Shown piece after piece: positions 9,901 to 63,864 of a stretch of 64,000 bases of DNA. Position 1 is the stretch's first letter. The number at the start of each line of letters is the position of its first letter. Source of the stretch: Dokdonia sinensis (GTDB lineage: Bacteria; Bacteroidota; Bacteroidia; Flavobacteriales; Flavobacteriaceae). The notes beneath the pieces were generated by a model. It was not told the origin of the DNA and did no database searches. It saw nothing but the letters and a program-made list of their open reading frames with translations. The position numbers and the translations under genes were made by a program. The stretch is from positions 1-64,000 of the forward strand of contig NZ_REFV01000012.1 in assembly GCF_003688895.1 (NCBI RefSeq), read 5' to 3'.

Positions 9901-12900
9901 AATTATCTGCGTTTCCATCAAAGGTTACTGATACTGCAACATCTACTCCAGATGCCGTTGTAGCGTTGAATGTAAATGGCGTTGACCCTCCAAACGGTGT
10001 CGACCCCGACCAAGCACCAGTTGTAGAAGGTGTACACAAGCCCTCTTGAACATCTGTTATCCCATCATTATCATCATCTACATCTACAGCATCTGGAATA
10101 CCATCCATATCAATATCTGGTAGGGATCTATAATCTACATCGCTAGTATTTCCATCGTCTTCAGGAAGTGTTGATGGGTCATCTAATGTTCCTTGAGGTT
10201 CTGCATAGGCATCCATTATTGTATTCAGGGTGCCGTCCATAAAATCATCTAGACCATTTCCATTTACATCTGTATTCAGCAATGCAATATCTGCCTCTAT
10301 ATTATCAGAAATGCCATCATTATCGCTATCAAGGTCTAAATAATCTGGAGTTGTTCCATCACCATCTGTATTTACAGGAGTAAGTCCTCCAACAGGAAAA
10401 TTATCTGGTAATCCTGGACTTGCAAAACCTTGTTGATTTACAGTGTCTGAAGGTGCTACAAAGCCAGCAGTAGTCTGGGCCTCAACAGTATCTGGAAGAC
10501 CATCATTGTCTGAATCTAGATCGAACTGATCAAAAACTCCATCGTCATCAGAATCTCTTCCTGATTGACATATTACAAACTGCGTAGAATCAAATGCTCC
10601 AACAGAATTCACAATATCAATTCTTACAGAAACACCCCCTATATTTCCTGTAGAGGAAACATTATAATCCGCAAAATCTCCAGGATTTCCGCCTGATACC
10701 GTAAAGGTATCATTTGTAGAATTTGTTGTGCTAAAAACTATAGTAGTAGTAGCCCCTTGACTTAATATGTTCCATCTAAAGTTAGGACCTGGATCTAAGG
10801 CTACAAAGGTTACTGTTTCAGAACTACTCATATTGGACTGCTGTCCCGCAAAAGATGCTGACTGAGGATCGGCTATGATAATAGGAGCTTTATCCGTAAA
10901 AGTAAATGTGTTTTCTGCGAAGTCGCCAGTAGTCGTTGTATTGTTCTCAAAGCGTACGATACCGTCCGTATTTTCTGCAACATCATAGTTTGTATCGTTA
11001 GAACTTAGAGGGCTCACAATCAAACCCTTAACAGGATTTCCGTTAGTTGCACTAAACGCACTCCCTCCTGCGTCGCTCAAGGAATTATAATTAAATGTGT
11101 TCACAGTATCTGCAAACTCAACGGTATCAAGTATCCCGTCATTGTCATCATCTACATCAACACTATCAGGAATACCATCATTATCATTATCTGGTTGATC
11201 ATCTGTTGTATCTCTGTAATCAACATCCCCAGTAGTTAAGACATCATTATCTGTATCTTGCAAAGTCGTAGGATCATCTAAACTTCCATTAGGATCTGTC
11301 CCACTAAAAGGCCCAAAAAGTCCTAGGGCCTCTTGACTATCAGTCAGTCCATCCTTATCACTATCTACATCTCTATAATCCTGAGGGTCATTGCTCAACC
11401 CATCTGTATTTACTGGCGTTATAGGAGATCCGTTGGTATCGTAAGCGTCATTTACACCATTACCATCTGTATCTGCTTCATTAATGTCTGGGGTCGTGGG
11501 GTCGTCTTCAATAGGTGATATGTAACCTACTGTAGATTGCGCTTCTACATTATCAGGCAGTCCATCTCCATCTGAATCCCAAGAGATATAACTACGCTCA
11601 CCAGATGGACCTACTGTAGGAAATGTATTATACTCTACAAAAGGATCTACAACACCACCATTACCATCGTCTGGTCCTTCTGCAATACCGTCCATATTTG
11701 CATCTGTACCATTTTGACCTGGTATTAATCTGTTTTCAATAAGGTCATATATTCCATCGTTATCTGCATCTAGATCAATTGCATTTGGAAATCCGTCAGA
11801 ATCAAAATCATCATAAGTTTCAATTTCGTCAGCTATACCATCGTTATCACTGTCTATATCCTGGAAATTATATCTGGTAAAGTCTCTACCAAAAGCTGAG
11901 TATGTATCGCCATCTATGTTCGCTTTCGCGAAAGCGGTACCACCATCATCACTATCTACTATATTACTCCATCCATCTCCGTCTGTATCTGTAATCGTGG
12001 TTCCTTCTATAGTACCATCACCATCCGTATCGGCAGTAGCTCCGAGCACTTCGACGATGTCAAAAATACCGTCACCGTCTGCCTCTGTGTCTATATAATC
12101 TGCACCATCAGTACCATCTGTATTAGGAACTGGTAAGAAACTATTTGCATTTAAGGCAGAACCATCACGATTGTCTATGGGGTCAAGCGCATCTATTAGT
12201 CCATCTGCATCTACGTCATTTGTTGCTCCAGCACCAAAACGACCATCATCATTATCATCTGTTCCACCAGCTTCGATAGTATCCGGGATTCCATCGTTGT
12301 CCGAATCAATATCTAAAAGATCATTTAATCCGTCTCCGTCAAAATCTTCAGGAATAATTCGTATTGAACTCCCTGCTACGACTGGACTTCCTAAGGCATC
12401 TACATTTGTGGTTATCAATCCTGTTCCGGGCTGACCACTACCATCAGGATCATTAGTCCCTCCGGCTTCTCTGTAATCTGTTATACCATCATTATCGCTA
12501 TCTAGGTCAAAAATATCAAGTATACCATCGCCATCTGTATCTATAGGCTCACAACTAAAGCCTCCAAAGAAAAATCCGTCAGCGTTATTGCCATTACTTG
12601 ATATGGTAAGATTTTGAATAGGCTGTAAGAACTCAATAGTACCACTTTCATCACTTCCACCGGGTAAAACAGGAACACCAACACTATTTGCCGTAGGAGA
12701 AGTAAAGTTGGGCTGACTGATAATTATATTTAAGTTACGTGCGGCGCCACCTTCTGTAAAAGTCAATGTCGTACCGTTTAACCCTTTTAAATTCAATCTC
12801 AAATTATTAACAGGTCCATTTGGAAATGAAAGTGTGGCCTCGATTGCACCATTAAAAACTGCAGCCGTTGGCGCAGTTCCTGCTGGCTCAAAAGCATTAG

Positions 12901-15697
12901 TATCTGTAAAATCTACATCTGTAAAAAGCTCGCTTCTTGTACCATTAGTTACAGCAAGTGTAAAAGGCTCTCCATTAAATGACCCTTGAAAGGTTCCTCC
13001 AGGATTTGCAGATACTGAGGTAAATGTAAATTCATAACACCCTTCTCGACCATCTGTTACCCCATCGTTATCATCATCTATATCTACACTATCAGGAATA
13101 CCATCTCCATCATTATCTGGCATTACCAGCTCACGCCAGTCTCTCTCTGTAGTTCCTGCATTCTGATCATTAGGTTGTGATTGTGGAGTTTGACCTCCAT
13201 TAGTAACGTTCGCAATAGACGTATTTCCGCCAGCATTTAAATCAAAAACATTTGCTATACCATCACCATCTGTATCACCTGCTGCAATTGACCCTGAGTC
13301 CAAAATACCGTCATTATCATTATCTGTCTCAGAACCCGCAAGTGTTCCGGAAGGCCCAAAAAAGTTTTCACTTAAGTCATTAGGATCTCCGCCTGCACCG
13401 TCCTGATCATCTGCATTTGTATCTGCATAGTCTGGCGCGCTTCCTCCGTCTGTGTTTGCATAACCGTGAGCGACACCACCTTGTGTAACATCATAAGCAT
13501 CATCAAGCCCGTTATTATTTGCATCTATATTGCTAGGTGGAACATACGAAGTTGTAGGCAGTCCCTCAATATTATCTATAATACCGTCATTATCTACATC
13601 GAGATCTAGGTAATTTACAATACCGTCCCCATCACGGTCCTGGTTAAATCCAAATCCGCCAATTACGTTTCCAGGTGCATCAGGGTCATTGCTATCTGCA
13701 AGACCATCGCCATCACTATCTACTGGAATTCCAGCACCTACTATACCATCATTATCACCATCTACAACCTGAAAATTCCCCTCAAAAGTATCTGGCAATC
13801 CATCACCATCACTATCAAGGTCACAGTGATCAGGAATTGCATCATAATCACTATTTGCCACAGTACCATTCCAAGCGGCAGTTGCAGTATTATCCCATCC
13901 ATCACCATCAGCATCAGAAATTGAAGTTCCACCTATGGTCCCATCATTATCTGGGTCGCCTAAGGTAGCATTGTTTACCCAAGCTTCTTCCGCATCTGTA
14001 ATACCATCGTTATCTGCATCTTTATCCTTAAAATCTGCAAGCGCATTTCCTTGCGCATCTGTATCACCGTCCTTATTTGGAATTGTATAATTTATACTCG
14101 CACCGTCTGTATCATTTGTTTCTACAAGATTTGAGAGTCCGTTTCCTCCAAAAGGACCGTCGACCAAGCCGTCACTATCTCCATCCTGACCGTGACCTGC
14201 TTCAAAAGCATCTGGGATACCATCATTATCACTATCTAAATCCAAATAGTCTGGAATACCATCCCCATCTGAATCTTCTAGGATACAATACTCCATATCA
14301 TAGATTTGCATCGTCACATTACCAGAGTTACCATTGTTTTTACCTGCAGTAAGTACTACTTCTGTAACCGGCCCTCCAAACTCTATCAATACAGAATTGC
14401 TAGGCGCATTAGCCCCTCCTGCAGAACTTACGATTGAATTACCACTTATAGCTGCATTACCGCCCAGATTGACATCTACAATTCTCGCCCCTTCAAACAC
14501 ACCATTATTAGTAGCCTCTACATCTAATCTATCCTGATTATCTATTCCCCCTACTTTAAACTCTAATTTATAAACAGGTTTAGAGAAAGTAAGTGTATAC
14601 TCTGCCGTCGAACCGTTTGGAAAATTTGTTTGCCTAGGCTGCACATTGATATAACTACCATCTGCACCTAAAGAACCATTATTTAACGTTCTAACTCCAT
14701 CTGCCCAAGTGGCACTCCCTTGGAGTTCATAATTAAAATCGACCGTTACATCTTGAAAACCAAACAGTCCCGTTTGTGTTCCTGGGTCTGCCTTATTTGC
14801 AAATGTTTGTCCCACGGGTACCGCACCAGGAGTACAGATATTCTCTTCGCCATCTGGAATACCATCATTATCGTTATCTAAATCTGAAATATTAGGCACA
14901 CCATCCCCATCATCATCAAAATCAAAAGCGTTATTAAAGCTAAGATTTGCGATACCGATACGTTGACTTGTACCTCTATTGTTATCTATATTCGAATACA
15001 CAAAATCAATACGAACCACTTCTTCAGGAAACGTAAGATCGAGAATACCTCCCGTATCACCGCTACCAGCATTACCGTTTATCCCTAAAAATCTATTATT
15101 ACCTGTGTAAGCGACGTGAAAACCAAGTGTTCCACCATAATTTGCGGCAGTAATAGGTATCGTAGACCCATCTGGTCTAATCGCATTTACAAAAATTTCA
15201 TCCTCAAAACTTCCTGCAATCTCGTCTATATCTTGCATAGAGAAGGTTAAGTTCCTTACAGGATTAGAAAATGCAAATGAAGTGGTAGATCCACCTATGC
15301 TACCTCTTTTATGCTCAATCTCCAGAATATTACCAAAACCAAAACCATTTACGACAGAGATTTCACTAATAGAGTTGTTTGCATTATCGTTAGAAACTGT
15401 CACCGTCGTCCCATCAGAAAAGTCTGACGTAACCGGGAAATCATTCTGCCAGTTTGCTCTTGTTCCAGAGAAACCAAAATCAGACTCCCAAGCTATTGAA
15501 CCAGAGCCTGCAAAAGGCATTAGATTCAGATAACTCTTTCCTAAACTAGTTTTTCCTAGCGACGTATTTGCCGTTACAAAAGCTGTGATGATGGCAAATG
15601 TAAAAAGCCCTAGAATAAAACGCGTTGCTCGTACTGCAAACGCCTTACTAAGGACTTTCGAAAAACGTGATGTGGTGAATAAAGTAATTTTTTTCAT
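1..15697 (-). CDS. Giant TSP3/Calx-beta repeat surface protein (partial, C-terminus off window)
   Basis: The frame starts at an ATG complementary to 15697 and stays open to the window edge: more than 5,200 codons without a stop. The N-terminus has a long signal peptide ([12 protein letters not shown]..., hydrophobic core near residues 28-42). Then follow at least six lectin/beta-sandwich-like segments of 100-200 residues, often with a closing Cys. They are separated by thrombospondin type 3 calcium-binding runs of the kind [16 protein letters not shown] and DVDDDNDGI. An Ig/PKD-like region (about 4050-4350), six Calx-beta-like units (about 1614-4020), a cadherin-like segment (about 1250-1610) and tandem [10 protein letters not shown]-type Ig-like repeats complete the visible part. 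Known family role: large extracellular adhesins of Bacteroidota, usually exported by the type IX system through a C-terminal domain, which is not visible here. PorU and PorV are encoded at 33-38 kb. Function in adhesion or gliding is inferred. The gene contains one GCTTTCGCGAAAGC copy, translated as AFAKA. Confidence 0.9.
1614..4020 (-). repeat. Six diverged Calx-beta-like units in the giant gene
   Basis: The minus-strand translation shows six successive units of roughly 120-150 residues. Most end in a short acidic motif of the form (I/V)xDND, such as GSVIDND, GSISDND, GEITDND, GNVLDND and VDIIDND. Internally they carry an E(E/G)TETL-type motif ([29 protein letters not shown]). This is the Calx-beta pattern, a calcium-binding beta-sandwich common in large secreted adhesins. 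The units are strongly diverged at DNA level, unlike the 267-bp array beside them. Boundaries are approximate. Confidence 0.75.
4440..14900 (-). repeat. Thrombospondin type 3 calcium-binding runs alternating with lectin-like segments
   Basis: In minus-strand translation this part is a series of acidic DxDxDGxxD loops. Typical phrases are [32 protein letters not shown] and VDYR. They are interrupted by longer non-acidic segments that look like secreted beta-sandwich domains, for example near 7030-7610, 8150-8820, 9370-10040, 10560-11120, 12550-13040 and 14290-14840. The phrase order is repeated module by module, so the region probably arose by old segmental duplications. Binding of many calcium ions is expected from the family. 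Confidence 0.85.
11923..11936. repeat. GCTTTCGCGAAAGC palindrome, copy 1 (in giant gene)
   Basis: Perfect 14-bp palindrome, extended to 16 bp by flanking C and G. It lies in a TSP3 loop region and is read in the AFAKA frame ([11 protein letters not shown]). It is the only perfect copy in the first 18 kb. Confidence 0.95.
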
Positions 15698-18360: not shown

Positions 18361-19311
18361 ATGAAAAAACTGGTCATCGCAGGAGGAACGGGTTTTCTCG
18401 GCTCCGTAATTATTAAACATTTTAGCACACGGTTTGAGGAGATAGTTTTGCTTTCGCGAAAGCGAACTAGTGAGCTTCACGACCAAAGGGAGAGCACAGC
18501 GGTAAAACGTAAACCTAATAATGGCAATGTGCGCACCGCAATTTGGGATGCCAGAACATTTTCTGGCTGGGAAAAGGAACTCGACGGGGCAGACGTCCTC
18601 ATTAATATGACTGGCAGATCTGTAGATTGTCGCTATAACCAAAAGAACAGAGACCTCATCTTGAATTCTAGAGTGGACAGCACAAAAATTCTGGGGGAAG
18701 CCGTTGCGCAATGTGCACGTCCGCCCAAAGTTTGGTTAAATTCCTCCACTGCTACTATATATAGACACTCGCTGGACAAAGAAATGAGCGAAGCAACTGG
18801 AGAAATAGGTTCAGGATTTTCGGTAAACGTTGCGACTGCTTGGGAGAACGCTTTCTTTAAAAGTAAAACACCCGCAACGCGCAAGGTTGCCCTGCGTACT
18901 TCCATTGTCCTAGGGAAAGATGGCGGAGCCCTGCAACCCATCAAGCAAATCACAAAAATGGGCCTGGGCGGAAGACAGGGCAATGGCAAGCAAAAATTCA
19001 GCTGGATACACGAGGAAGACTTTGTGCGCAGTATCGATTTTATCCTAGATTCCGCACTCGAAGGACCCATAAATATCGTCGCGCCAAAACCCACGACAAA
19101 CAGCATCCTTATGAAAACGATGCGAGAAACTTTAAATGTACCTTTCGGGATTCCTGCCCCCAAACCCATTTTAGAAATTGGTGCGTTTACCATCCGGACA
19201 GAAACGGAATTATTATTAAAGAGCAGGAATGTGATACCTCAGCGACTTCTGGAGGGTGGATTTACGTTCTATCATCCTAAGCTTAAAGAAGCCCTTAACG
19301 ACCTATTATAA
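18361..19311 (+). CDS. TIGR01777-family NAD-dependent epimerase/oxidoreductase
   Basis: A 316-residue extended short-chain dehydrogenase. The nucleotide-binding motif is GGTGFLG (residues 8-14), with LINMTGRSVDCRY near 80 and FSWIHEEDFVRSIDFIL near 215. A C-terminal DUF1731-like part includes RLLEGGFTFYHPKLKEAL. The family resembles E. coli YfcH, whose substrate is unknown. Compared with YfcH, the loop after the second strand is longer by roughly 14 residues. That extra stretch (residues 30-49, LSRKRTSELHDQRESTAVKR) is encoded by a copy of a dispersed repeat (18450-18506). The gene overlaps the next by TAATG, so the two are translationally coupled. Confidence 0.88.
   Translation: MKKLVIAGGTGFLGSVIIKHFSTRFEEIVLLSRKRTSELHDQRESTAVKRKPNNGNVRTAIWDARTFSGWEKELDGADVLINMTGRSVDCRYNQKNRDLILNSRVDSTKILGEAVAQCARPPKVWLNSSTATIYRHSLDKEMSEATGEIGSGFSVNVATAWENAFFKSKTPATRKVALRTSIVLGKDGGALQPIKQITKMGLGGRQGNGKQKFSWIHEEDFVRSIDFILDSALEGPINIVAPKPTTNSILMKTMRETLNVPFGIPAPKPILEIGAFTIRTETELLLKSRNVIPQRLLEGGFTFYHPKLKEALNDLL
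18450..18506 (+). repeat. Extended palindromic element inside the epimerase gene
   Basis: It begins with GCTTTCGCGAAAGCGAACT and continues at 18478-18506 with a 29-bp tail starting CACGACCAAAG and ending CAGCGGTAAA. The copy at 63809-63864 has the same 19-bp head and the same tail with one mismatch. Only the short spacer between head and tail differs. This copy is read in frame as about 19 extra residues of the epimerase. It includes palindrome copy 2 (18450-18463), read as LSRK. Confidence 0.85.
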
Positions 19312-19760
19312 TGACTACTATAAGCCTAACCACCCAAATCAACGCTCCTATTCTTGAGGTTTTCGAACTTTCCCGAGATATCGACTTCCATAAAACGTCG
19401 GTTTCTGATACTCAGGAAGAAGCCATTGCCGGAGTCACCTCTGGGAAAATAGGAATGGGTGAAACGGTGCGGTGGCGTGGGAAACATTTCGGCGTTTTTC
19501 TCACCCACGAAAGTAAAATTACCGCGTTCCATAGCCCGTCGTTATTTACGGACGAAATGATTTCTGGCAGGTTTAAAAGTTTTAGACACGAGCACCGCTT
19601 TCGCGAAAGCGGAAACAAAACAATTATGGAAGACATATTAACTTACGAAACACCTTATGGAATCTTCGGTAGGCTGTTCGACACCTTTTTTCTAGAAAAA
19701 CACCTCACAACATTCCTGCAACAGCGCAACTTAAATCTAAAAAAAGCTCTGGAATCTTAA
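19311..19760 (+). CDS. SRPBCC-family ligand-binding protein
   Basis: A 149-residue soluble protein with the START/Bet v1-like (SRPBCC) pattern. The N-terminal strand is ISLTTQINAPILEVFELSRDIDFHK, with central GETVRWRGKHFGV, then FRHEHRFRES, and a final amphipathic helix near LFDTFFLEKHLTTFL. Proteins of this fold bind hydrophobic small molecules. It overlaps the epimerase stop by TAATG. From general knowledge of flavobacterial genomes, TIGR01777 and SRPBCC genes are often paired. Palindrome copy 3 falls inside, giving HRFRES. No terminator is seen before the sigma-factor gene, which has its own -7 box. Confidence 0.82.
   Translation: MTTISLTTQINAPILEVFELSRDIDFHKTSVSDTQEEAIAGVTSGKIGMGETVRWRGKHFGVFLTHESKITAFHSPSLFTDEMISGRFKSFRHEHRFRESGNKTIMEDILTYETPYGIFGRLFDTFFLEKHLTTFLQQRNLNLKKALES
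19597..19610. repeat. GCTTTCGCGAAAGC palindrome, copy 3 (in SRPBCC gene)
   Basis: Perfect copy, 16 bp with flanking C/G, read as RFRES near residues 96-100 of the SRPBCC protein. Confidence 0.95.
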
Positions 19761-20383: not shown

Positions 20384-20626
20384 ATGAATATTAAAGTAGA
20401 GTGTCACGAGGCAAATCACATCTGTGACAAGAACCAATATAAGGAGGCGACGTTTTGGGAAAAGGTAAAACTTAACTTCCACCTCATCTATTGTCGCGCC
20501 TGTCGCAAGTATTCGGCACGCAACAACAAACTTACTAAGGCTATTAAAAATCCTAAAGTGCAAACCGTTTCGATGTCAGAAAAAGAGGCGATGAAGCGTC
20601 GACTGGAGGAGCAATTAAGCAATTAG
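20384..20626 (+). CDS. Small zinc anti-sigma-like protein (ZAS motif)
   Basis: An 80-residue soluble protein. It shows H33-x3-C37-x2-C40 (HLIYCRAC), the Hx3Cx2C signature of zinc anti-sigma factors, plus C7, H8, H12 and C14 that could supply the fourth ligand. The rest is charged and helical, with no membrane segment. It follows the ECF sigma gene by 23 bp and is probably cotranscribed. Known ZAS proteins such as RsrA sequester their sigma factor and release it on thiol oxidation. A redox or zinc switch is therefore a reasonable inference. Its last 12 bp overlap the convergent UbiA-like gene. Confidence 0.7.
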   Translation: MNIKVECHEANHICDKNQYKEATFWEKVKLNFHLIYCRACRKYSARNNKLTKAIKNPKVQTVSMSEKEAMKRRLEEQLSN

Positions 20627-21442
20627 ATCTTCGGCGATCGACAGCAATATCACCCAGAAGATTGGAACTGCCTCGACGATAAAAGAAGCGTAGTATTTGG
20701 GTTGACGCTTTCGCGAAAGCGTAATCAAAAACCCCAAAATCAATAACACAATACATAATATCACAATCTGTTGTATTTTAAAATCATCGATTGTGTATTC
20801 CAAAAGAAAACCTATTACTAAAAGTGAAACTCCCAAAAGTTTTACTTTTTTTATACCCATCACTTGCGGAAGGGTATGTAACGCCATCGTATCATACGCT
20901 AAATCCCGAATCTCAAATGGAATCATAAGTGTAAGGACAATCAGGAAGCGCTGTAATGCTATAATATAGACATCCCAATATAACTCAAGACCATTTTCTA
21001 CCACTGGCAAAACCACTGTAGTTCCAGCCCAGACCAGCGCAATAACAAACACTTTTATCCCCGCAATAGACCGCAAATTCCGCTTAAGTAGAAATAGTGG
21101 AACAGCATAAAACAAGGTAAACAATGCGAGAATCGCACAGGTAAGCAGTGTTTCCCAGCGCAAGACCAGTCCCGTGAATATCATTCCCAGACCACACATC
21201 ACAGAAAAAACCTGAATACTGCGTAATGAGCGCGCAAGACTCCTATGATGCAATCCCGCTACTGATGCATATTTTACAAAGTTGTATCCCGAAACACTAC
21301 TGCAAAAGAGGAAAATCAAAAAATAAACATCAAGCTTAATACTCAAAGAAAAACCCGTGACTAAAGCTAGCGCAACCACCGCAAGACTCACGTGGATGCT
21401 ACTGTTTATATAAAAGTCAAAGGCTTTTTTAAGCATTGTCAT
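20615..21442 (-). CDS. UbiA-like membrane protein, divergent
   Basis: A 275-residue polytopic membrane protein with about eight hydrophobic segments, arranged as in UbiA prenyltransferases. The second acidic motif is present (EIRDLAYD, D180 and D184). The first is degraded: YNFVKYAS near residue 54 keeps the Asn but lacks the usual Asp residues that hold Mg-diphosphate. Either the activity differs or the family is only distantly UbiA-like. Flavobacteria carry several such genes of unknown role. It is convergent with and overlaps the anti-sigma-like gene by 12 bp. It contains palindrome copy 4, read as LSRK near the C-terminal end. Confidence 0.7.
   Translation of the reverse strand: MTMLKKAFDFYINSSIHVSLAVVALALVTGFSLSIKLDVYFLIFLFCSSVSGYNFVKYASVAGLHHRSLARSLRSIQVFSVMCGLGMIFTGLVLRWETLLTCAILALFTLFYAVPLFLLKRNLRSIAGIKVFVIALVWAGTTVVLPVVENGLELYWDVYIIALQRFLIVLTLMIPFEIRDLAYDTMALHTLPQVMGIKKVKLLGVSLLVIGFLLEYTIDDFKIQQIVILCIVLLILGFLITLSRKRQPKYYASFIVEAVPIFWVILLSIAEDLIA
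20707..20720. repeat. GCTTTCGCGAAAGC palindrome, copy 4 (in UbiA-like gene)
   Basis: Perfect copy with flanking C/G (16 bp), read on the minus strand as LSRKRQ in a loop near the protein's C-terminus. Confidence 0.95.
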
Positions 21443-21570: not shown

Positions 21571-24420
21571 ATGAATACAGATTCATTTGCATTACGCCAT
21601 ATAGGACCACGCCGTCACGACCTCCCAGAGATGTTAGAAACAGTAGGTGTCGCGTCTGTTGAGCAACTTATTTCTGAAACTATTCCAGAGAACATACGCC
21701 TAGATAAAAAACTCGAACTGGACCCTGCGATGAGTGAGCAAGAATATGCCGCTCATATCACAGAACTGGCAAACCTGAATCAGGTATTCAAATCATATAT
21801 AGGCCTAGGCTATCACCAGGCGGTTACTCCAGCGGTGATACAACGCAATATTCTTGAAAATCCAGGATGGTATACCGCATACACTCCTTATCAAGCAGAG
21901 ATTGCTCAAGGTCGCCTCGAAGCGCTGCTCAATTACCAAACAATGGTTACAGACCTCACAGGTATGGAGCTTGCAAATGCCTCTCTTCTGGACGAATCGA
22001 CCGCGGCGGCTGAAGCAATGGCATTATTATTTGCAGTACGTGAGCGACAGCAAAAGAAAGACAACGTTTGTAAGTTCTTTGTTTCTGAAGAAATTTTACC
22101 ACAAACACTTTCATTATTACAAACGCGCTCTACACCCATCGGTATAGAGCTTGTGGTAGGGAATCACGAAGAATTTGATTTTTCAAAGGAATTTTTTGGA
22201 GCTATTCTTCAATATCCTGGTAAATCTGGAAATGTATATGATTATGCTGGATTTGTAGCTAAAGCAAATGCGGCAGACATTAAGGTTGCCGTTGCTGCAG
22301 ATATCTTGAGTCTCGTGAAGCTTCGTGCTCCGGGAGAATTTGGGGTAGATGTGGTTGTGGGAACGACGCAACGTTTTGGAATTCCGTTAGGTTATGGTGG
22401 TCCTCACGCAGCATATTTTGCGACTAAAGAAGCCTACAAAAGAAATATTCCAGGACGTATCATCGGCGTAACCAGAGACACAGATGGTAACCGCGCCCTG
22501 CGTATGGCCCTCCAAACGAGAGAGCAACACATTAAACGCGACAAAGCAACCTCTAATATTTGCACAGCGCAAGTACTTCTTGCAGTAATGGCGGGGATGT
22601 ACGGTGTGTATCACGGCCCAAGAGGTCTTCAAAATATTGCAGATAAAGTGCACAACAGCACCGCAACACTTGCAGATGCTTTGGAGAAATTAGGATTGTA
22701 TCAAACGAATGCGACCTACTTTGATACTATCCAGGTAAAGGCAGATGCAGAGAAGGTTTACGCTTTCGCGAAAGCGGAAAACATCAACTTCCACTATCCA
22801 GATTCAGAAACCGTTTCTATCTCATTGCACGAGGCCACAACCCTAGCAAATGTAAATGAGATCATCGCTGTTTTTGCAAAGGCTTTAAACAAAGAAACCA
22901 TCACCGTAAGCGAAATTACCGAAGGAACATCCATAGGAAAAGACGTTGCTCGTGATACAGATTTTCTCACGCTTCCAGTTTTCAATACCTATCATTCTGA
23001 AACAGAATTGATGCGTTATATTAAAAAACTGGAGCGCAAAGATTTATCGCTTAATCATTCTATGATTTCGCTAGGTTCCTGCACGATGAAGCTCAATGCT
23101 GCCTCAGAGATGTTACCACTATCTGATCCTCAGTGGGGCAATATGCACCCATTTGCACCGCTAGAACAAGCACTGGGCTACCAAACGATGCTCAAAAAGC
23201 TAGAAGACCAACTAACAGAAATCACAGGTTTTGCAGGTACATCCTTACAGCCTAACTCTGGTGCACAGGGAGAATATGCAGGACTAATGGTAATTAGAGC
23301 CTATCACGAATCTCGTGGAGACGCTCACAGAGACATCTGCTTAATTCCATCTTCTGCACACGGAACAAACCCAGCGAGTGCTGTTATGGCGGGAATGAAA
23401 GTGGTCGTGACCAAAGCACTAGAAAACGGAAATATAGACGTAGATGATTTAAGAGAAAAAGCTGAAAAGCACAAGGACAATCTTGCCGCTCTAATGATTA
23501 CCTACCCTTCTACACACGGAGTTTATGAAAGTGCTGTAAAGGAAATCACTCAGTTAATACACGATCACGGTGGTCAAGTATATATGGACGGGGCAAATAT
23601 GAACGCTCAAGTGGCACTCACTAATCCTGGAGCCATAGGCGCAGACGTATGTCACCTTAACCTGCACAAAACATTTGCCATTCCTCACGGAGGTGGTGGC
23701 CCTGGTGTAGGACCAATTTGTGTAGCAAAACAACTGGTTCCCTTCCTACCTACAAATCCAGTGATTGAAACTGGAGGAGAAAAGGCGATTACAGCAATCT
23801 CTGCGGCACCTTGGGGTTCTGCATTGGCTTGCTTGATATCTTATGCATACATCACTATGCTGGGAGAAAGTGGCCTATCCCGTTCTACGGAATATGCGAT
23901 TCTTAATGCAAACTATATTAAAGAGCGCCTTGATGGACACTATCAATGTCTATATACTGGCGAAAAAGGTCGCGCGGCACACGAGATGATTATAGACTGC
24001 CGTCCATTTAAAGCAAATGGTATTGAAGTAACAGATATTGCAAAACGTTTAATGGACTACGGTTTCCACGCGCCTACGGTTTCTTTCCCAGTCGCAGGAA
24101 CGATGATGATAGAGCCTACAGAAAGTGAAAGCAAAGAAGAACTAGACCGTTTTTGTGATGCGATGATTAGCATACGTAAGGAAATAGACACCGCAAATGC
24201 TGACGAGCCCAACCATATCATGAAAAACGCACCACATACGATGCAAATGGTTACTGCAGATGCTTGGGAATTTCCCTACTCAAGACAACAAGCAGCTTAC
24301 CCATTAGAGTACGTGGCAGACAATAAATTTTGGCCTACCGTACGTCGTGTAGATGACGCTTACGGAGATCGTAATTTAATTTGTACTTGCGCTCCTATTG
24401 AGGAGTATATGGAAGCTTAG
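21571..24420 (+). CDS. gcvP: Glycine dehydrogenase (decarboxylating), P protein
   Basis: The 949-residue length matches the single-chain P protein of the glycine cleavage system. That protein decarboxylates glycine with PLP and loads the aminomethyl group on the H protein. The N-terminal FALRHIGPRRHD is typical. The PLP lysine is K700 in HLNLHKTFAIPHGGGGPG, next to the glycine-rich loop. Two homologous halves are evident, and SLGSCTMKLNA is conserved. The other cleavage-system genes are not adjacent, as is usual in flavobacteria. It has its own promoter box and a hairpin terminator after the stop. Palindrome copy 5 is translated as YAFAKAEN between the halves. Confidence 0.98.
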   Translation: MNTDSFALRHIGPRRHDLPEMLETVGVASVEQLISETIPENIRLDKKLELDPAMSEQEYAAHITELANLNQVFKSYIGLGYHQAVTPAVIQRNILENPGWYTAYTPYQAEIAQGRLEALLNYQTMVTDLTGMELANASLLDESTAAAEAMALLFAVRERQQKKDNVCKFFVSEEILPQTLSLLQTRSTPIGIELVVGNHEEFDFSKEFFGAILQYPGKSGNVYDYAGFVAKANAADIKVAVAADILSLVKLRAPGEFGVDVVVGTTQRFGIPLGYGGPHAAYFATKEAYKRNIPGRIIGVTRDTDGNRALRMALQTREQHIKRDKATSNICTAQVLLAVMAGMYGVYHGPRGLQNIADKVHNSTATLADALEKLGLYQTNATYFDTIQVKADAEKVYAFAKAENINFHYPDSETVSISLHEATTLANVNEIIAVFAKALNKETITVSEITEGTSIGKDVARDTDFLTLPVFNTYHSETELMRYIKKLERKDLSLNHSMISLGSCTMKLNAASEMLPLSDPQWGNMHPFAPLEQALGYQTMLKKLEDQLTEITGFAGTSLQPNSGAQGEYAGLMVIRAYHESRGDAHRDICLIPSSAHGTNPASAVMAGMKVVVTKALENGNIDVDDLREKAEKHKDNLAALMITYPSTHGVYESAVKEITQLIHDHGGQVYMDGANMNAQVALTNPGAIGADVCHLNLHKTFAIPHGGGGPGVGPICVAKQLVPFLPTNPVIETGGEKAITAISAAPWGSALACLISYAYITMLGESGLSRSTEYAILNANYIKERLDGHYQCLYTGEKGRAAHEMIIDCRPFKANGIEVTDIAKRLMDYGFHAPTVSFPVAGTMMIEPTESESKEELDRFCDAMISIRKEIDTANADEPNHIMKNAPHTMQMVTADAWEFPYSRQQAAYPLEYVADNKFWPTVRRVDDAYGDRNLICTCAPIEEYMEA
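22762..22775. repeat. GCTTTCGCGAAAGC palindrome, copy 5 (in gcvP)
   Basis: Perfect 16-bp copy read as AFAKA near residue 399 of the P protein, in a surface-like linker segment. Confidence 0.95.
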
Positions 24421-39103: not shown

Positions 39104-39183
39104 GTATTCTCAACTAATTCTTAAACTACCTCGTTTTCGTAACTTTTCCACACATTGGATTTTAATGTATGGTTTTGAAATGG

Positions 39184-47034: not shown

Positions 47035-47054
47035 AGCTAAAGTTTAGCTTTTTT
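47035..47054 (+). terminator. Terminator after the DUF389 gene
   Basis: AGCTAAA, one base, TTTAGCT, then TTTTT. The left arm is the last, partial heptamer unit. The 100 bp that follow, up to the tRNA, show no gene. Confidence 0.7.
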
Positions 47055-50653: not shown

Positions 50654-50976
50654 TTATTTCGCTTTGGCGAGAGGAAATAAAATTTAAAATTCCGAGCTGA
50701 AATTCATAGGATGCCCGCTTTCGCGAAAGCGGAATAAACAACCTCGATGAGAGCCTACGGGTATTAAATTAAAAAATACGTTTTCCAAAATCCAAAGGAA
50801 GATAAAAAATACAAGCAGAAGGGAAATTGAATTCTCAGGGATTTGAAATCGGAAGGATTGTTATTCAATAGAAATGGTTTGAAGAGCATCACATTTTTAC
50901 GAAAGCGTCATCACAAACCTTAATATTGTCTTAAAATTACATATTTTAGAGGCTTGACAAATTAACAACAACATAT
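50654..50976. other. Intergenic region between the glycerol fusion gene and the symporter
   Basis: 323 bp without a gene. It holds palindrome copy 10 (50717-50730) and a half-site ACGAAAGCG near 50899. It ends in an AT-rich stretch (TTAAAATTACATATTTTAGAGG) that probably includes the symporter promoter. No terminator is evident after the fusion gene. Confidence 0.55.
50717..50730. repeat. GCTTTCGCGAAAGC palindrome, copy 10 (intergenic)
   Basis: Perfect 16-bp copy about 64 bp after the stop of the fusion gene. With no T-run it does not look like a standard terminator. Confidence 0.95.
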
Positions 50977-52622: not shown

Positions 52623-52713
52623 GGTAGTCGGTAGTCGGTAGTCGGTAGTCGGTAGTCGGTAGTCGGTAGTCGGTAGTCGGTAGTCGGTAGTCGGTAGTCG
52701 GTAGTCGGTAGTC
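52623..52713. repeat. Heptamer tandem array (GGTAGTC) x 13
   Basis: Thirteen exact copies of GGTAGTC start 2 bp after the TAA of the symporter gene, followed by GAAAAAAC. The unit length and the position right after a stop codon match the AGCTGGG array at 46972. The remaining 128 bp before galE hold only a weak inverted repeat (TCCCGATAGTTATAGGGA near 52788). Confidence 0.97.
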
Positions 52714-52842
52714 GAAAAAACTATTTTTTTGCTTGCGAAAAAAAGATTTTGAGATTTTGTAAACAAATATTGAGCTTAGGGGATGAGTCCCGATAGTTAT
52801 AGGGATTGCCGTAGCGTATATTAAATTGAATGCAGAAATAGA

Positions 52843-53868: not shown

Positions 53869-54822
53869 ATGTTTGCAATCAAGAAAAGATTTTTAGGAAC
53901 CTTTACAGAAGTTTTTCTTGAGGATATTAATACAGGCGTTTGTGTGAGCTGTATTCCCGATCACGGGGCACAGCTTAACCATCTTAATCTTTTAAAAAAC
54001 GGCAAATCACACGCCTTGCTTTGGAGTGCACATACTGCTCATGAATTTACAGAGCAATCTATTCCCTACTTCTCTGGCTCGCATTTATTCCCCTTTCCTA
54101 ATCGGATAGATGGTGGTCGCTATTCCTTTAATGGGGATAAATTAAAATTAAATTGTAATGAAACTTCAAACTACAATGCATTGCACGGTTTGATTTTTAA
54201 CAAACCTTTTGAACTACAAAAAACTGAGACAGATTCTGCTTTCGCGAAAGCGGAATTTTCATACTCCACAAATACTCGTCATCCTGGTTTTCCGTTCCTG
54301 TATACCATTGCAATTACTTACACAATTTTTAAAAATAAGCTGCTCGTAGAAACTCGGGTTCGCAATAATGATGACAAGAAATTTCTTTTTGGATTAGGCT
54401 CACATCCTTATATTAATACAGGTACATCAATAAACAAATTGTTGGTGCAACATCCAGGCACCTCATCTTTAGAACTCAACAACCGAATGATCCCTACTGG
54501 AAATACAACTCCAGATTTGAGATTTTTAAAAGCCTATACCTTAGGTACAACAACGCTAGACCATTGTTTTGTACTAAGTCCTAATCATAAGATGGCCGTA
54601 ACGCGTATCATCGACCCTATTAAGAACCTCAACATCGAGATCCGTCAGGAAAATTCTGAAGGCCGTTATAATTTTTTGCAACTATATACTTCGCCAGACA
54701 GAAATAGCATTGCGGTAGAGCCTATGACTTGTGCGCCAGATGCATTTAATAATGACAAAGGAATTCTATTTTTAGAACCTGAAGACACTTACACGTCTTA
54801 CTTTGAGATTGCCCTTACTTGA
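53869..54822 (+). CDS. Aldose 1-epimerase (mutarotase-like)
   Basis: A 317-residue beta-supersandwich protein of the aldose 1-epimerase family. It shows IPYFSGSHLFPFPNRIDGGRYSFNG (substrate-binding Arg), NALHGLIFN (catalytic His), GLGSHPYIN (second His) and AVEPMTCAPDAFNN (catalytic Glu region). It interconverts alpha and beta anomers of hexoses. It has no signal peptide and so is probably cytoplasmic. It pairs with galE upstream. Palindrome copy 11 encodes DSAFAKAEF between the first His motif and the next strand. Confidence 0.92.
   Translation: MFAIKKRFLGTFTEVFLEDINTGVCVSCIPDHGAQLNHLNLLKNGKSHALLWSAHTAHEFTEQSIPYFSGSHLFPFPNRIDGGRYSFNGDKLKLNCNETSNYNALHGLIFNKPFELQKTETDSAFAKAEFSYSTNTRHPGFPFLYTIAITYTIFKNKLLVETRVRNNDDKKFLFGLGSHPYINTGTSINKLLVQHPGTSSLELNNRMIPTGNTTPDLRFLKAYTLGTTTLDHCFVLSPNHKMAVTRIIDPIKNLNIEIRQENSEGRYNFLQLYTSPDRNSIAVEPMTCAPDAFNNDKGILFLEPEDTYTSYFEIALT
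54238..54251. repeat. GCTTTCGCGAAAGC palindrome, copy 11 (in aldose 1-epimerase gene)
   Basis: Perfect 14-bp copy with T on the left and G on the right, read as AFAKA near residues 124-128. Confidence 0.95.
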
Positions 54823-54885: not shown

Positions 54886-55755
54886 TTAATGCTCGTGGTC
54901 ATCGTGATCGTGCTCCTCTTCTGGTATAACGTCTAACGCTTCCTTTAAAGTGTAAGCTGTAAGATTACTTCCTTTGTAATTTGTCACATAAAGCTTATTT
55001 TCTCTCACTAAAACATCCGTAGGTTTAGAAATACCATCCTTGATCTCTTGCTTGAACCGTCCGGCCATATCAAAAACTACAATACGATTATTCTCAAAAT
55101 CAGTAACAAAAATCTCGTTTTCGGTTACAAAAATTCCAGTCGCAGCATTTAAATCTTGGTCTACACCTACTGTTCTTATATGCGTTCCATTTTTTGTAAA
55201 TGATTGTACTCTATTATTATAAGCATCTGCTACCCAAATTTCATTTTCGGTAATTTGAACATCCGTAGGATAATAAAAGTCTCCATCTGCTTTACCTTCT
55301 TTTCCAAAGGTCATCCAGTCTGTCCCGTTACTAGAGTAATGGATTTTATTGTTATAAAAATCGGCAATTGCGATTTCATTCCCACGCACATCTACGCCAG
55401 CGGGCGCGTCTAAGCTATCTTTTGTTGTGATTACTGTTTTTGCGCTTTCGCGAAAGCGTATTACCTCATCATTACCATATTGCGGAATAATGATCTCATT
55501 TCCTTCTGTGGCAATATGCATAGGTCGGTCTAATGAGTCTATAACCTTTAAAGTTTTCCCATTATCATCTATTAACACCACCCGATTATGGTCTCCATCG
55601 CTTAACCATATCCCATTATCGCTAGCTGCTATACCTATGGGATTTACACCTTCTAGCGCAATGGTTTCTGATAGTTGCCAAGTTTGATCTTTATCCTGAG
55701 ATGTGCAACCCGCTATTATAAAAGCGAGAATTGCTAAATTATATATTTGTTTCAT
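54886..55755 (-). CDS. NHL-type beta-propeller lipoprotein with His/Asp tail
   Basis: A 289-residue lipoprotein with lipobox IIAGC (Cys17). The body is a series of about six NHL-like blades with recurring phrases: GIWLSDGDHNRVVLID, EIAIADFYNNKI, EIWVADAYNNRVQSF and EIFVTDFENNRIVVFD. The last residues, EEEHDHDDHEH, form a His/Asp-rich tail that could bind metal. It is the last gene of a minus-strand group with a double-HMA protein, an outer-membrane protein and an HYC_CC_PP protein, which supports a metal-related envelope role. Its substrate is unknown. Palindrome copy 12 falls between blades, read as RFRESAK. Confidence 0.85.
   Translation of the reverse strand: MKQIYNLAILAFIIAGCTSQDKDQTWQLSETIALEGVNPIGIAASDNGIWLSDGDHNRVVLIDDNGKTLKVIDSLDRPMHIATEGNEIIIPQYGNDEVIRFRESAKTVITTKDSLDAPAGVDVRGNEIAIADFYNNKIHYSSNGTDWMTFGKEGKADGDFYYPTDVQITENEIWVADAYNNRVQSFTKNGTHIRTVGVDQDLNAATGIFVTENEIFVTDFENNRIVVFDMAGRFKQEIKDGISKPTDVLVRENKLYVTNYKGSNLTAYTLKEALDVIPEEEHDHDDHEH
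55444..55457. repeat. GCTTTCGCGAAAGC palindrome, copy 12 (in NHL lipoprotein gene)
   Basis: Perfect 16-bp copy read on the minus strand in the FRES frame. Confidence 0.95.
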
Positions 55756-56493: not shown

Positions 56494-57264
56494 TTAAAAT
56501 GTGTAACGAGCCCCAGCAAAAATGCTATAATTAAGCTCTCTATCATTAGGCATATTCTGAATCAAAGGCAATTGTACAGCAAGGTCAAAAGTCATATTCT
56601 TCCCTGCATATTGTATCCCCTGTGCATAGAGCAATTGATACCAATCCCGCTCTACCAAGAGCGCATTTGTATACTCAAAATAAAGATTTAACTGCTTGTT
56701 GGGGTATTGCGGTTTTAGAAGTGGTAGCCCAAAACCTAGTTTTGCTCTAAATTCATCTAAGGTTCCGTCTGGCATCCAGTTGTATCCTACTTCAGTAGAA
56801 ATTCCATACTTCAAGGTTTCGTAGCCCGATACAAGACCGTAATATCCAGCATATTTTCCGGTGCTGAGTTCCATAATATCGAGTTCTTCTCCGGTGGGCA
56901 ATGTTTGTAATGTCTTTGCCACCATTCTAAAGGTCTTACCCGTAGCATCTTTTCTAAAGAATTGATACTTCCCTAACACCTTAATATCGGCAAGAGCATT
57001 ACCTCCTGCTGCCCCATCTTTAAAATCGTAATCTATATAAGGTAGATGTACTGCTACAAGAGAATTAGACGTTGGTAAATAGTGTAGCATAAGCGGCACG
57101 TAAAGCGCCGAAAGCCGCTCCGTATCCCTATACTCTATTAATGTTTTTGTTGTAAAACTATTACCTCCCAGCATTATAGGCTTATCTGCTGTAATAGGAG
57201 GTCCTTGTGAGTACGCTTTCGCGAAAGCGCAAACAAGCATAATCCCTGTTATAATATATTTCAT
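56494..57264 (-). CDS. Outer-membrane beta-barrel-like protein
   Basis: A 256-residue protein with a signal peptide (MKYIITGIMLVCAFAKAYSQG). It is rich in alternating beta-strands such as ALYVPLMLHYLP, LVAVHLPYIDYDF, TEVGYNWMP and AKLGFGLPLL. It ends in YSIFAGARYTF, a typical barrel-closing strand with terminal Phe. It resembles small transporter-type outer-membrane proteins found next to metal-resistance genes; the family name is not certain. It lies 19 bp before the HMA-protein gene on the minus strand, probably one operon. Palindrome copy 13 encodes AFAKA inside the signal peptide. Confidence 0.78.
   Translation of the reverse strand: MKYIITGIMLVCAFAKAYSQGPPITADKPIMLGGNSFTTKTLIEYRDTERLSALYVPLMLHYLPTSNSLVAVHLPYIDYDFKDGAAGGNALADIKVLGKYQFFRKDATGKTFRMVAKTLQTLPTGEELDIMELSTGKYAGYYGLVSGYETLKYGISTEVGYNWMPDGTLDEFRAKLGFGLPLLKPQYPNKQLNLYFEYTNALLVERDWYQLLYAQGIQYAGKNMTFDLAVQLPLIQNMPNDRELNYSIFAGARYTF
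57215..57228. repeat. GCTTTCGCGAAAGC palindrome, copy 13 (in a signal peptide)
   Basis: Perfect 16-bp copy coding for AFAKA at residues 13-17, at the end of the hydrophobic core and next to the expected cleavage site of the outer-membrane protein. Confidence 0.95.
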
Positions 57265-61163: not shown

Positions 61164-63554
61164 TTATTCTTTCCTTAAAGCACCTATTGGGTTTCTGAGC
61201 GCGGCTTTTATACTTTGTAAACTCACGGTGAGTAACGCCACAAATAGTGCACAAAGTCCTGTAAAGATGAATGGCTCCCAGCCTATAGAAATACGATAGG
61301 CAAATTCCTGTAGCCAATTATTCATCACATAATATGCTAGCGGAAAGGCAATGATTAACGCTATTCCCACGAGCTTGATAAAGTCTGTAGATAGTAGTTT
61401 TGTAATGCCAAAAACACTTGCGCCTAGTACTTTACGTATACCGATTTCCTTGTCGCGTTGCTCTGCGGTAAATGCTGCTAGGCCGAAAAGACCGAGACAG
61501 GCTACAAAGATGGCTAGGATAGAAAAAATAAGTCCTATTTGCGCTGTACGCTGTTCGGCTTCGTAAAGTTTTTCTGTGTTTTTATCTAAGAACGAATAAT
61601 CAAATGCTCCGCCAGGAATGATCTCTTTAAAATCTGCTTCAAAAGTAGATAATGTTGTTGAGAGGTCGCTTTCGCGAAAGCGTACCAATAAATAGTTTTT
61701 ATATTCTCCTATAGGCCTATTATGAAAAGCATAAGCGCCTATGGGTGCACGTAGTGAGGTGAAGTTAAAATCGTCTACCACGCCTCTTATGTAGGCATTA
61801 CTTCCTAACTGTGCGTTTATTTTTTTACCTATGGCTTCTTCTGGACTAAGGCCTAGATATGCTACCGCTTTTTTGTTTAATAACACCTCTACAATAGTAT
61901 CTGAGCGTTGCTTTACTCTGGGCAACGGTTGTCCAGCAAGTAGCTTTAAATTGAGTACATCTACAATGGCTGCATCACTATGATTGGTTTGGAGATTGGT
62001 CCCAGATTCATCTTGGTCGTTTTTACGCAGTGTGCGGCCACTTACACCTAGTCCCGGGTAGCCCTGTGCGAGTGATACACTCTGGACTATAGGGTTGTTT
62101 TTAAATTTATTAAGGAGCGCATCTTCAGACTTGTTCTCTAATGCAACTGTTGCGTTTATGGCCAAGACTTGATTAGGGTTAAAACCTAAGTCCTTCGTCT
62201 GCATAAACGTCATTTGTTTGTACATAACAGCAACGCTCACAATTAATATGACTGAGGCGGCAAACTGCACCACCACAAGTCCTTTGCGCACTAATTTTGC
62301 TGCTCCCTTTCTAGCTGGAGAGGGGTTCATTATTTCTTTGGGTGAAAATTTAGAGAGATGTAATGCTGGGTACGATCCAGCCACTAGCGTAGTAATAATC
62401 CATACGCCTAGGAGCAAGAAAAGAAAGGTAGGAGAGAGTACCTCTGCTACAACTATCGTTCTGCTTGTAATATCGTTAAAAAATGGTAGTGCAACTATAG
62501 TGAGTACAATCCCAAGTGCAATAGCAATCCCAGTAATTAAAAATGTTTCCGTATAAAATCTGAGTATGAGGCTTTGTGTAGATGCTCCTAACGTTTTACT
62601 TATGCCTACATCTTTTGTGCGCTTTTGAGAGCGCGCTGTCGTAAGATTCATATAATTAATGCAGGCAATAATAAGTATAAGAAAAGCTAGTAGTGTGAGA
62701 TTGCGCACTTCATTAATATCCCCGTCACGCTTGCTGTAACTATCCAGGTAACCTCCAGAATATAAGTGGACCTCCTCCAACGGTTGTAAGCCGAAGGAGT
62801 ACCATTGGTCTTCTTTAACCACATTCTTATTTAAAGTTGTTTGGATCTTACTTACAACCTCATCTATGTTTGTGTTGTCTACTGTATATATGTAGGTTTC
62901 AAAACTAGAATTACTCCAAGAAGGGTTTTTATAAAAATTGAGGGTTTTAAAAGAGCCTACCATTGCCGCATCTAGGGTGCTGTTGCTAGGCAAATCTTCG
63001 TATACTCCGGTCACTTCAAGTTCGAGGCCATTATCTATGTTTAGGGTTTTCCCTATAATATCTATCGTTCCAAAATACTGTAAAGCACGACTTTGAGAAA
63101 GTGCAACTGCATTAGGCTTATCTAACGCTTTTTGACCATTGCCACGCAGGAAGGGGACATTAAAAATTTGGAACAACTCGGCGTCTGCCCAGTACAAATC
63201 CTTTTCTATAAACTGCTCGTCTCCAGCTTTTACAAAAGCATTTCCGCCAAAGTTATGACGATACATACGTGATGCTTTCTTAACCTCAGGAATGTCTGCC
63301 ACAATTGCTGGAGCGAGGGCTGCGGGAGCGTTTGTCCACGTTTCTTCGCCCTGGTCGCCATCTGTAAAGAGAAGGACACGCTGTATATTTTCTTTTTGAG
63401 CATACATCGTGTCAAAACTGCGCTCGTGACTTATAAATAAAAAAAGCAGTAATGTTATCGCTAGTCCCACAGAAAGGCCTAGAATATTGAGTACAGAAAA
63501 CTTAGGGTCTGATCGTAAGTTTCGCCAAGCAATTTTAATGTGGTTCTTAAACAT
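61164..63554 (-). CDS. FtsX/MacB-type ABC transporter permease
   Basis: A 796-residue permease. An N-terminal helix (LNILGLSVGLAITLLLFLFIS) precedes a large periplasmic MacB-like domain (about 45-270). FtsX helices follow at about 280-400 (LTLLAFLILIIACINYMNLTTARSQKR). A second MacB-like domain is near 440-660, and the last helices start at about 670 (IGLIFSILAIFVACLGLFGLAAFTAEQRDKEIGIRKVLGAS) and close with AALRNPIGALRKE. Such tandem permeases export peptides or lipophilic compounds through a TolC partner. Another permease end lies just upstream (63912-64000). Palindrome copy 14 encodes VRFRESD in the second periplasmic domain. Confidence 0.93.
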   Translation of the reverse strand: MFKNHIKIAWRNLRSDPKFSVLNILGLSVGLAITLLLFLFISHERSFDTMYAQKENIQRVLLFTDGDQGEETWTNAPAALAPAIVADIPEVKKASRMYRHNFGGNAFVKAGDEQFIEKDLYWADAELFQIFNVPFLRGNGQKALDKPNAVALSQSRALQYFGTIDIIGKTLNIDNGLELEVTGVYEDLPSNSTLDAAMVGSFKTLNFYKNPSWSNSSFETYIYTVDNTNIDEVVSKIQTTLNKNVVKEDQWYSFGLQPLEEVHLYSGGYLDSYSKRDGDINEVRNLTLLAFLILIIACINYMNLTTARSQKRTKDVGISKTLGASTQSLILRFYTETFLITGIAIALGIVLTIVALPFFNDITSRTIVVAEVLSPTFLFLLLGVWIITTLVAGSYPALHLSKFSPKEIMNPSPARKGAAKLVRKGLVVVQFAASVILIVSVAVMYKQMTFMQTKDLGFNPNQVLAINATVALENKSEDALLNKFKNNPIVQSVSLAQGYPGLGVSGRTLRKNDQDESGTNLQTNHSDAAIVDVLNLKLLAGQPLPRVKQRSDTIVEVLLNKKAVAYLGLSPEEAIGKKINAQLGSNAYIRGVVDDFNFTSLRAPIGAYAFHNRPIGEYKNYLLVRFRESDLSTTLSTFEADFKEIIPGGAFDYSFLDKNTEKLYEAEQRTAQIGLIFSILAIFVACLGLFGLAAFTAEQRDKEIGIRKVLGASVFGITKLLSTDFIKLVGIALIIAFPLAYYVMNNWLQEFAYRISIGWEPFIFTGLCALFVALLTVSLQSIKAALRNPIGALRKE
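61668..61681. repeat. GCTTTCGCGAAAGC palindrome, copy 14 (in permease gene)
   Basis: Perfect 16-bp copy read on the minus strand in the FRES frame. Confidence 0.95.
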
Positions 63555-63634: not shown

Positions 63635-63648
63635 GCTTTCGCGAAAGC
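63635..63648. repeat. GCTTTCGCGAAAGC palindrome, copy 15 (intergenic)
   Basis: Perfect 16-bp copy; the flanks TTAC and GGAAAAC are shared with copy 5 in gcvP. Confidence 0.95.
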
Positions 63649-63808: not shown

Positions 63809-63864
63809 GCTTTCGCGAAAGCGAACTCAAAAAAACACGACCAAAGAGAGAGCACAGCGGTAAA
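63809..63864 (+). repeat. Extended palindromic element (intergenic copy)
   Basis: GCTTTCGCGAAAGCGAACT, an A-rich spacer, then a 29-bp tail at 63836-63864 (CACGACCAAAG to CAGCGGTAAA). It matches the element inside the epimerase gene (18450-18506) with one mismatch in the tail. It includes palindrome copy 16. Confidence 0.88.

Follow-up and report, generated by a model that had tools for sequence, protein, structure and literature searches.

A 14-bp palindrome repeated hundreds of times in Dokdonia genomes is a candidate tag for self-DNA

Short DNA words that recur throughout a chromosome are known from several bacterial systems. To our knowledge, abundant tags of self-DNA are established in two proteobacterial families only, with the DNA uptake sequences (DUS) of the Neisseriaceae and the uptake signal sequences (USS) of the Pasteurellaceae. 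Chi sites are short and lack palindromic symmetry. Noc-binding sites, parS and matS are palindromes of a length similar to that of the element described here, those of Noc and parS with TTTC/GAAA-like arms, and they occur in tens of copies with a bias towards the replication origin (ori) or terminus (ter). Here, we analyze the palindrome GCTTTCGCGAAAGC in the first 64,000 nt of contig NZ_REFV01000012.1 of Dokdonia sinensis (the window; all copy positions are window coordinates) and in related genomes. This genome is labelled G000, and G-, g-, L- and C-numbers denote genomes, genera, loci and contigs, respectively. We put at about even the chance that the palindrome serves homologous exchange as a self-DNA tag and accumulated by molecular drive.

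Sixteen perfect copies of the palindrome lie in the window, compared to none in 100 dinucleotide shuffles, along with just four further sites within two mismatches. Twelve of the 16 lengthen to 16 bp (CGCTTTCGCGAAAGCG). Twelve copies are located within large open reading frames (ORFs), where the ORF coordinates place them in the frames AFAKA (six), LSRK (three) and FRES (three), and four (39090, 50717, 63635 and 63809) lie outside. The last three of these are covered by short TTG/GTG-start frames only, which overlap larger genes or have fewer than 70 codons and which we take as spurious. The numbers of perfect copies, of 16-bp extensions, of coding and other copies and of copies per frame agree with an earlier note on this DNA, which had listed the same places with a single error: the first copy starts at 11922 rather than at 11923.

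Globally, the 3,647,482 bases of G000 (43 contigs) contain 857 perfect 14-mers, or one per 4.3 kb, against 0.006 expected from base composition and none for a control (the complement palindrome). Allowing two mismatches, 1281 sites were found genome-wide versus 21 for the control palindrome. In a 464-kb sample (C1:1-400000 plus the window), 106, 20 and 29 sites had zero, one and two mismatches, compared to 0, 0.33 and 2.7 under an order-4 Markov model (three simulations). The abundance is thus far above chance, as the earlier note had claimed, and genome-wide counts close to the Markov expectation, which it had named as refuting evidence, did not occur. Perfect copies also outnumbered one-mismatch copies in 16 congener regions (84 to 4), in 100 kb of G027 (16 to 1) and in 100 kb of G230 (13 to 2), just as in the G000 sample (106 to 20). 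An excess that falls with mismatch load in this way is a hallmark of DUS and USS.

Another such feature is a higher density between genes. In the complete genome G016, 65 of 129 copies were called intergenic although only 8.4% of the DNA is non-coding, and on C1 of G000 the figures were 34 of 90 and 9.2%; this excess is inflated because our home-made gene caller placed three of the 12 coding copies of the window (19597, 20707 and 26559) between genes. AFAKA was the leading frame of the coding copies in both G016 (36 of 64) and C1 of G000 (34 of 56). With three frames in use and the 14-mer far above chance genome-wide, it is the DNA that is maintained and not one peptide, in line with the earlier note.

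Each copy is the centre of a symmetric element of about 52 bp, consisting of the 14-bp core and about 19 nt per side (exemplified by 39071-39122; the profile is an average of 106 copies and makes no claim on a single one). On the 5′ side, G and T are abundant and C is scarce; the 3′ side is the mirror image of this, A/C-rich and G-poor. Closest to the core, C/G at ±1 (89%) and T/A at ±3 (78%) lengthen the palindrome towards TACGCTTTCGCGAAAGCGTA. The GC skew of the flanks was 0.67 at 6–10 nt, 0.56 at 11–15 nt and 0.50 at 16–20 nt, then fell to 0.21 at 21–30 nt and about 0.09 up to 60 nt, and was near zero beyond. G016 and Nonlabens-type loci show the same profile, as do, to a weaker degree, the 13 copies of G230, and it held for the intergenic copies of G000 and of G016 taken separately. 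These polarised flanks are new here and absent from the earlier note. Complementary letters across the two flanks were about as frequent as the marginals predict, with no base-pair covariation, which rules out selection for an extended hairpin. When orthologous sequences without the site were compared to those with it, C was lost and G gained through every type of change, with weighted counts of 104 for C>G and 30 for G>C (342 pairs from 104 sites, with shared ancestry and outgroups included). A deamination scar is thereby ruled out, and the pattern argues, at the level of sequence comparison, for selection on composition. The flank positions were already somewhat C-poor in sequences without the site (13% versus 20% genome-wide).

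How sites arise is best seen in the neighbourhood of gcvP (21571-24420), which we aligned for 17 genomes of the genus and three outgroups, leaving out G019 and G007. Here, two alternative sites lie 108 bp apart: four genomes have the palindrome at 22762-22775 (AFAKA frame), nine have it at 22870-22883, four have neither and none has both. In G000, the second site reads GTTTTTGCAAAGGC (VFAKA). Most genomes without the palindrome at this position have sequences like GTTTTTGCAAAAGC (VFAKA, versus AFAKA elsewhere), and those without it at 22762 have peptides such as AVAQE. At both positions, as well as at 26559, where the palindrome is present in 15 of 16 genus genomes (G010 has no sequence there), the coding alignment is gapless, and the palindrome replaces protein sequence by substitution. 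Origin by point mutation, as in DUS and USS, is therefore seen at three coding positions. Three other sites (20707 in 5 of 17 genomes, 21082 in two and the intergenic 24545 in G004 alone) lie in or near gappy alignment and do not bear on this question; the outgroups have the palindrome at none of the aligned positions. The earlier note had also proposed that conservation of each copy at the amino-acid level in distant relatives without the DNA palindrome would refute its view. In 2 of the 12 coding genes, compared with three outgroups, no outgroup has AFAKA at the sites, though similar peptides (IFAEA, IFSEV) are found at 22870.

Once present, sites tend to be kept. We compared 209 sites across 20 genomes, with counts that share ancestry and favour alignable sites. 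At a mean flank identity of 80%, which averages stretches of unequal identity, all 14 bases were retained at 11 of 11 alignable sites from G006 to G003 and at 11 of 14 in the opposite direction. At 74%, the numbers were 8 of 13 from G004 to G006 and 8 of 9 from G006 to G004. The neutral survival expected for 14 bases is 4% at 80% identity and 1.5% at 74%. From G000, perfect copies were retained at 4 of 6 sites in G004 (70% flank identity), 2 of 5 in G006 and 2 of 4 in G003.

The palindrome has a narrow taxonomic distribution. All 17 other Dokdonia genomes examined carry 369–905 copies each. Among 397 genomes of the family, 317 had no match and 80 had any, with hundreds of copies in just six genomes of three genera: Dokdonia (g1; 857 in G000 and 903 in G011), g11 (578, 664 and 609) and g210 (408). 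The other genomes with a match had 1 to 19. A scan of named records returned at least 108 stretches, of which 67 were titled Dokdonia or Nonlabens, 4 belonged to strain BBFL7 and 37 to others; since the named matches mostly carry these two titles, g11 is by elimination probably Nonlabens. Imperfect copies are common in g210, with 732 sites within two mismatches versus 408 perfect ones. In g164, the genomes G184 and G368 have only 9 and 6 perfect copies; allowing two mismatches, they have 86 and 74 sites versus 20 and 10 for the control. This pattern resembles decay or an early stage, and the reader may have been lost in g164, with the palindrome now decaying. A single clade of the three carrier genera was not rejected (approximately unbiased test, p-AU 0.46), and the single-gene tree neither supports nor rejects it; the clade was named after the tree had been seen, and the partial L390, one of 30 loci, was left out. 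In 220 kb of three non-carrier relatives, no other palindrome stood out. No open-access paper was found to carry the letters of the 14-mer or the 16-mer or to combine Nonlabens, Dokdonia and palindromes; an excerpt of one paper on an unrelated enzyme contains an 11-letter piece (PMC9046217).

Among genomes with few copies, one arrangement recurs. In Aquimarina (L069:115-5022), a distance of 933 bp separates two perfect palindromes, with AFAKA in an efflux-like frame and adjoining multicopper-oxidase-like frames (names from reading the translations). A pair at exactly this distance is also present in G141, G118, G254 and G127, which represent four genera, and this suggests a single island transferred from a carrier genus.

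We favour molecular drive because the distribution, the origin by substitution and the turnover of sites match the description of uptake sequences, for which passages of two studies give an origin by point mutation and spread by molecular drive (PMC1939737, PMC7811141). The excess between genes, the retention of alignable sites and the even spacing along the chromosome (see below) also count in favour of the tag. In such a scheme, a symmetric, dimeric sequence-specific DNA-binding factor would read the tag during homologous exchange at the level of the genus. Fragments from relatives that contain the 52-bp element would be taken up more often, or spared and recombined more often after entry, and each transfer would bring the tag into the homologous locus of the recipient. 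Point mutations that complete the 14-mer could then spread by drive wherever the protein or regulatory sequence tolerates them, and the C-poor flanks, ending 3′, might help RecA or the exchange machinery to load. We infer the biasing of exchange by the tag, the factor, its step of action and the help of the flanks in loading from these patterns.

Long homologous tracts do pass between Dokdonia species. In a 60-kb region, G008 is 97–98% identical to G003 over 19 kb (G008:C1, about 415.7–434.7 kb) and about 80% identical elsewhere, and in the first part of this tract its usual relatives G006 and G009 drop from about 91% to 71–88%. Hence, homologous replacement of at least one long stretch has taken place between Dokdonia species that differ by about 20%. 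DNA of foreign type can be free of the palindrome: two Nonlabens phages (70 kb) have no copy versus 13.6 expected. The conjugation gene TraG was found in 3 of 22 genomes, and in the 80 kb fetched around each, within which the element ends are undefined, the first 64.5 kb in G011 and the last 48.5 kb in G013 lack the palindrome.

Several observations weigh against a self-DNA tag. Palindrome copies are not located at the breakpoints of the 19-kb tract. A 39.8-kb IMG/VR record (L190), phage-like by its translated frames and one of at least 120 viral stretches with matches, has 4 copies versus 7.8 expected, or about half the host density. Six copies precede the copy-free part of the G013 TraG region, the 80 kb around TraG in G009 hold 13 copies, a number close to the roughly 18 that the genome would average, and the genes in copy-free gaps of C1 are not plainly foreign. 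Sites of G000 are modestly conserved in single congeners (1–4 of 2–8 alignable sites perfect). Furthermore, pilus/secretion ATPases (PF00437) exceeded the cut-off in just 5 of 24 genomes tested, namely the carriers G004, G013 and G281 as well as G034 (no copies) and G254 (six copies); they did not in G000, G016, G006, G027, G433 or G230. The type IV pilus-type machine that goes with DUS and USS is therefore unlikely to operate in G000, and if the palindrome acts in uptake, it does so without a PF00437 machine. Known uptake sequences are not palindromes according to a passage of PMC1939737. The symmetry of the site is more in keeping with a soluble dimer. We found no uptake assay for Dokdonia or Nonlabens in the open-access literature.

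ComEC (PF03772) was over the cut-off in all 24 genomes, carriers and non-carriers alike, and a competence gene thus does not discriminate between them. Natural transformation is described for Riemerella species, which an excerpt of PMC7965970 places in the same family; one of them, R. columbina, is transformable and shows a preference for self-DNA, with no tag proven. The uptake-type signal was one of the roles considered in the earlier note. It fits the distribution best, yet it comes without a receptor, pilus machinery or an assay.

The strongest competitor, which we regard as possible though doubtful, is a role in chromosome organization: an abundant nucleoid or segregation protein would bind about every 4 kb and anchor loops, supercoil domains or condensin, and ordinary selection would keep its sites. 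A symmetric footprint of 52 bp suits a soluble dimer, alignable sites are conserved, and other species have a site 108 bp away in gcvP. Spacing is also more even than random. Over 20 evenly spaced 20-kb stretches (400 kb) of G016, each stretch had 3–9 of the 129 copies (mean 6.45, variance 1.94; lower-tail p 0.0015). On C1, the coefficient of variation of the spacing was 0.65 versus 0.98 for uniform placement, a value reached in 0 of 20,000 simulations. Close pairs are avoided as well: spacings below 1 kb numbered 2 on C1 versus 17.9 expected, and 10 versus 48 expected in congener stretches, some of which are orthologous to each other. Exceptions include the pair at 63635 and 63809 in the window and a 126-bp pair in four fetched relatives. 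This latter pair, at L321:15968-16107, is kept at matching places of L324, L327 and L332 (four species).

Other observations fit chromosome organization less well. No ori/ter trend was visible in the 400 kb sampled from the one genome G016, where every stretch has copies, and an ori- or ter-linked site is thus unsupported. The palindrome is abundant in three genera only, with several relatives at or near background, and the copy-free stretches of 64.5 kb in G011 and 48.5 kb in G013 lead us to disfavour an indispensable structural spacing. The nucleoid or segregation site suggested in the earlier note is hence weakened by the even distribution, though it stays the leading rival.

An improbable alternative is a two-way Chi-like signal, at which a helicase-nuclease that has entered a broken or incoming duplex would halt degradation when it arrives from either side, with RecA loading on the G/T-rich, C-poor strand just beyond. 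Indeed, whichever way the enzyme travels, the first 19 nt or so of the 3′-ending strand past the site are poor in C and rich in G and T. Chi has a similar density in E. coli to that of the palindrome (once per 4.3 kb), but a requirement for 14 bases would be unusual next to the short, non-palindromic Chi. In 30 strictly non-coding copies, T was found at every third position from −4 (−4, −7, −10 and so on) in 57% of cases versus 39% and 41% in the other phases. RecA is reported, in part of PMC3763553, to prefer TGG repeats. The phase test treats positions as independent and uses the 30 copies that remained after 20 non-coding copies open in some frame had been dropped; with so few copies and positions, we regard the 3-nt phasing as a lead.

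The self-DNA tag can be combined with this lead. In a tentative version, on which we would not bet, Bacteroidota would have a pilus-independent self-recognition in which a dimer reads the core and C-poor flanks with 3-nt phase load RecA on the outgoing strand of either side; a single signal would then mark self-DNA and also start its recombination.

We consider it very improbable that the palindrome is a target for methylation or other modification, as HIP1 of cyanobacteria may be, with a methyltransferase that would recognise an internal stretch, for instance TCGCGA. Highly iterated palindromes of cyanobacteria are indeed linked to methyltransferases (part of PMC4390886). Outside the 14-mer, however, TCGCGA showed neither excess nor avoidance in G000 (75 sites versus 64–67 by chance). 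HIP1 is an octamer, and a methyltransferase site would need less than 14 near-invariant bases with polarised flanks. Finally, a dispersed mobile palindrome of the Rickettsia palindromic element or repetitive extragenic palindromic (REP) type, or a terminator, can practically be dismissed: copies are dispersed in and between genes and in all three frames, and the alignment is gappy at 24545 (G004 only) with gaps near 20707 and 21082, but the gapless replacement of coding sequence at 22762, 22870 and 26559, where insertion would leave empty sites, rules out an inserted element such as the Rickettsia type raised in the earlier note, perfect copies outnumber decayed ones, and the 41 copies called intergenic lie between tandem (30), divergent (5) or convergent (4) genes or at a sequence end (2), with no bias towards convergent pairs that would indicate terminators.

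Within the window, the copies, to which no strand is assigned, are distributed over genes of diverse families. AFAKA copies are at 11922-11935, in a giant minus-strand open frame (window 2-15697), at 26559-26572 in a family 2 glycosyltransferase gene (26412-27263), at 33662-33675 in a Peptidase_C25 gene (33251-37108), at 54238-54251 in an aldose epimerase gene (53869-54822) and at 57215-57228 in a minus-strand gene without family assignment (56494-57264), in addition to the gcvP copy. LSRK copies are at 18450-18463 in a gene of the NAD-dependent epimerase family (18361-19311), at 20707-20720 in a minus-strand gene without family assignment (20615-21442) and at 43225-43238 in a short-chain dehydrogenase gene (43124-43816). 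FRES copies are at 19597-19610 in gene 19311-19760 (Polyketide_cyc2, slightly below the cut-off), at 55444-55457 in a minus-strand NHL-repeat gene (54886-55755) and at 61668-61681 in a minus-strand ORF (61164-63554). The intergenic copy at 39090-39103 has tac and gta flanks. Those taken as intergenic are at 50717-50730, where the sole cover is a TTG frame of 110 aa on the strand opposite the preceding gene, and at 63635-63648 and 63809-63822, an unusually close pair (174 bp) covered by GTG frames of 65 aa and 116 aa, respectively, the latter overlapping the next gene.

The giant frame on the minus strand (window 1-15697) has more than 5,200 residues, runs off the contig start and was too long for a family search; inside it, a 267-bp repeat is present in 3.7 copies with 98% matches (window 1-979). 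Perfect heptanucleotide tandem arrays directly follow genes, with 9.6 units of AGCTGGG at 46972-47038 and 13.1 units of GGTAGTC at 52623-52714, and short tandem words also head the word lists of the relatives G018 and G027. The sole Rfam match in the window is a tRNA.

If the palindrome is a self-DNA tag, it would define a third group of such tags, in marine Bacteroidota of which most tested carriers have no pilus ATPase over the cut-off, and control of gene exchange would have evolved once more, by way of different machinery. Should the reader organize the chromosome or act in recombination, some 850 identical 14-mers with a defined flank would still make it findable. The tag could also serve as a marker, as a donor of Dokdonia or Nonlabens type may be suspected where an island in another genus carries the palindrome.

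Compared to known systems, the palindrome differs from Noc-binding sites, parS and matS in its 857 copies and in their even spread, without positional bias, in the sampled genome (G016). Like HIP1 (GCGATCGC), it is a highly iterated perfect palindrome found in and between genes; unlike HIP1, it has 14 rather than 8 bases, a different core that is neither that octamer nor a derivative, extended one-sided flanks and no known methyltransferase link. With Chi, it shares a G/T-rich strand beside the site and a density like that of Chi in E. coli, but it is symmetric and longer, and its link to a helicase-nuclease is hypothetical. We do not file it as a DUS or USS because it is symmetric, no pilus ATPase is over the cut-off in G000 and no assay was found. 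It further departs from them in being a palindrome of 14 bases between mirrored, polarised flanks, in its occurrence in Bacteroidota and in coming without a receptor, and it is sparser than USS (one per 4.3 kb versus about one per kb, a figure from part of PMC7811141). The likeness to DUS and USS is nevertheless broad: all are short motifs with hundreds of sites and an excess that drops with mismatches, arise in place by point mutation, are enriched between genes, have no ori/ter trend and are limited to related genera.

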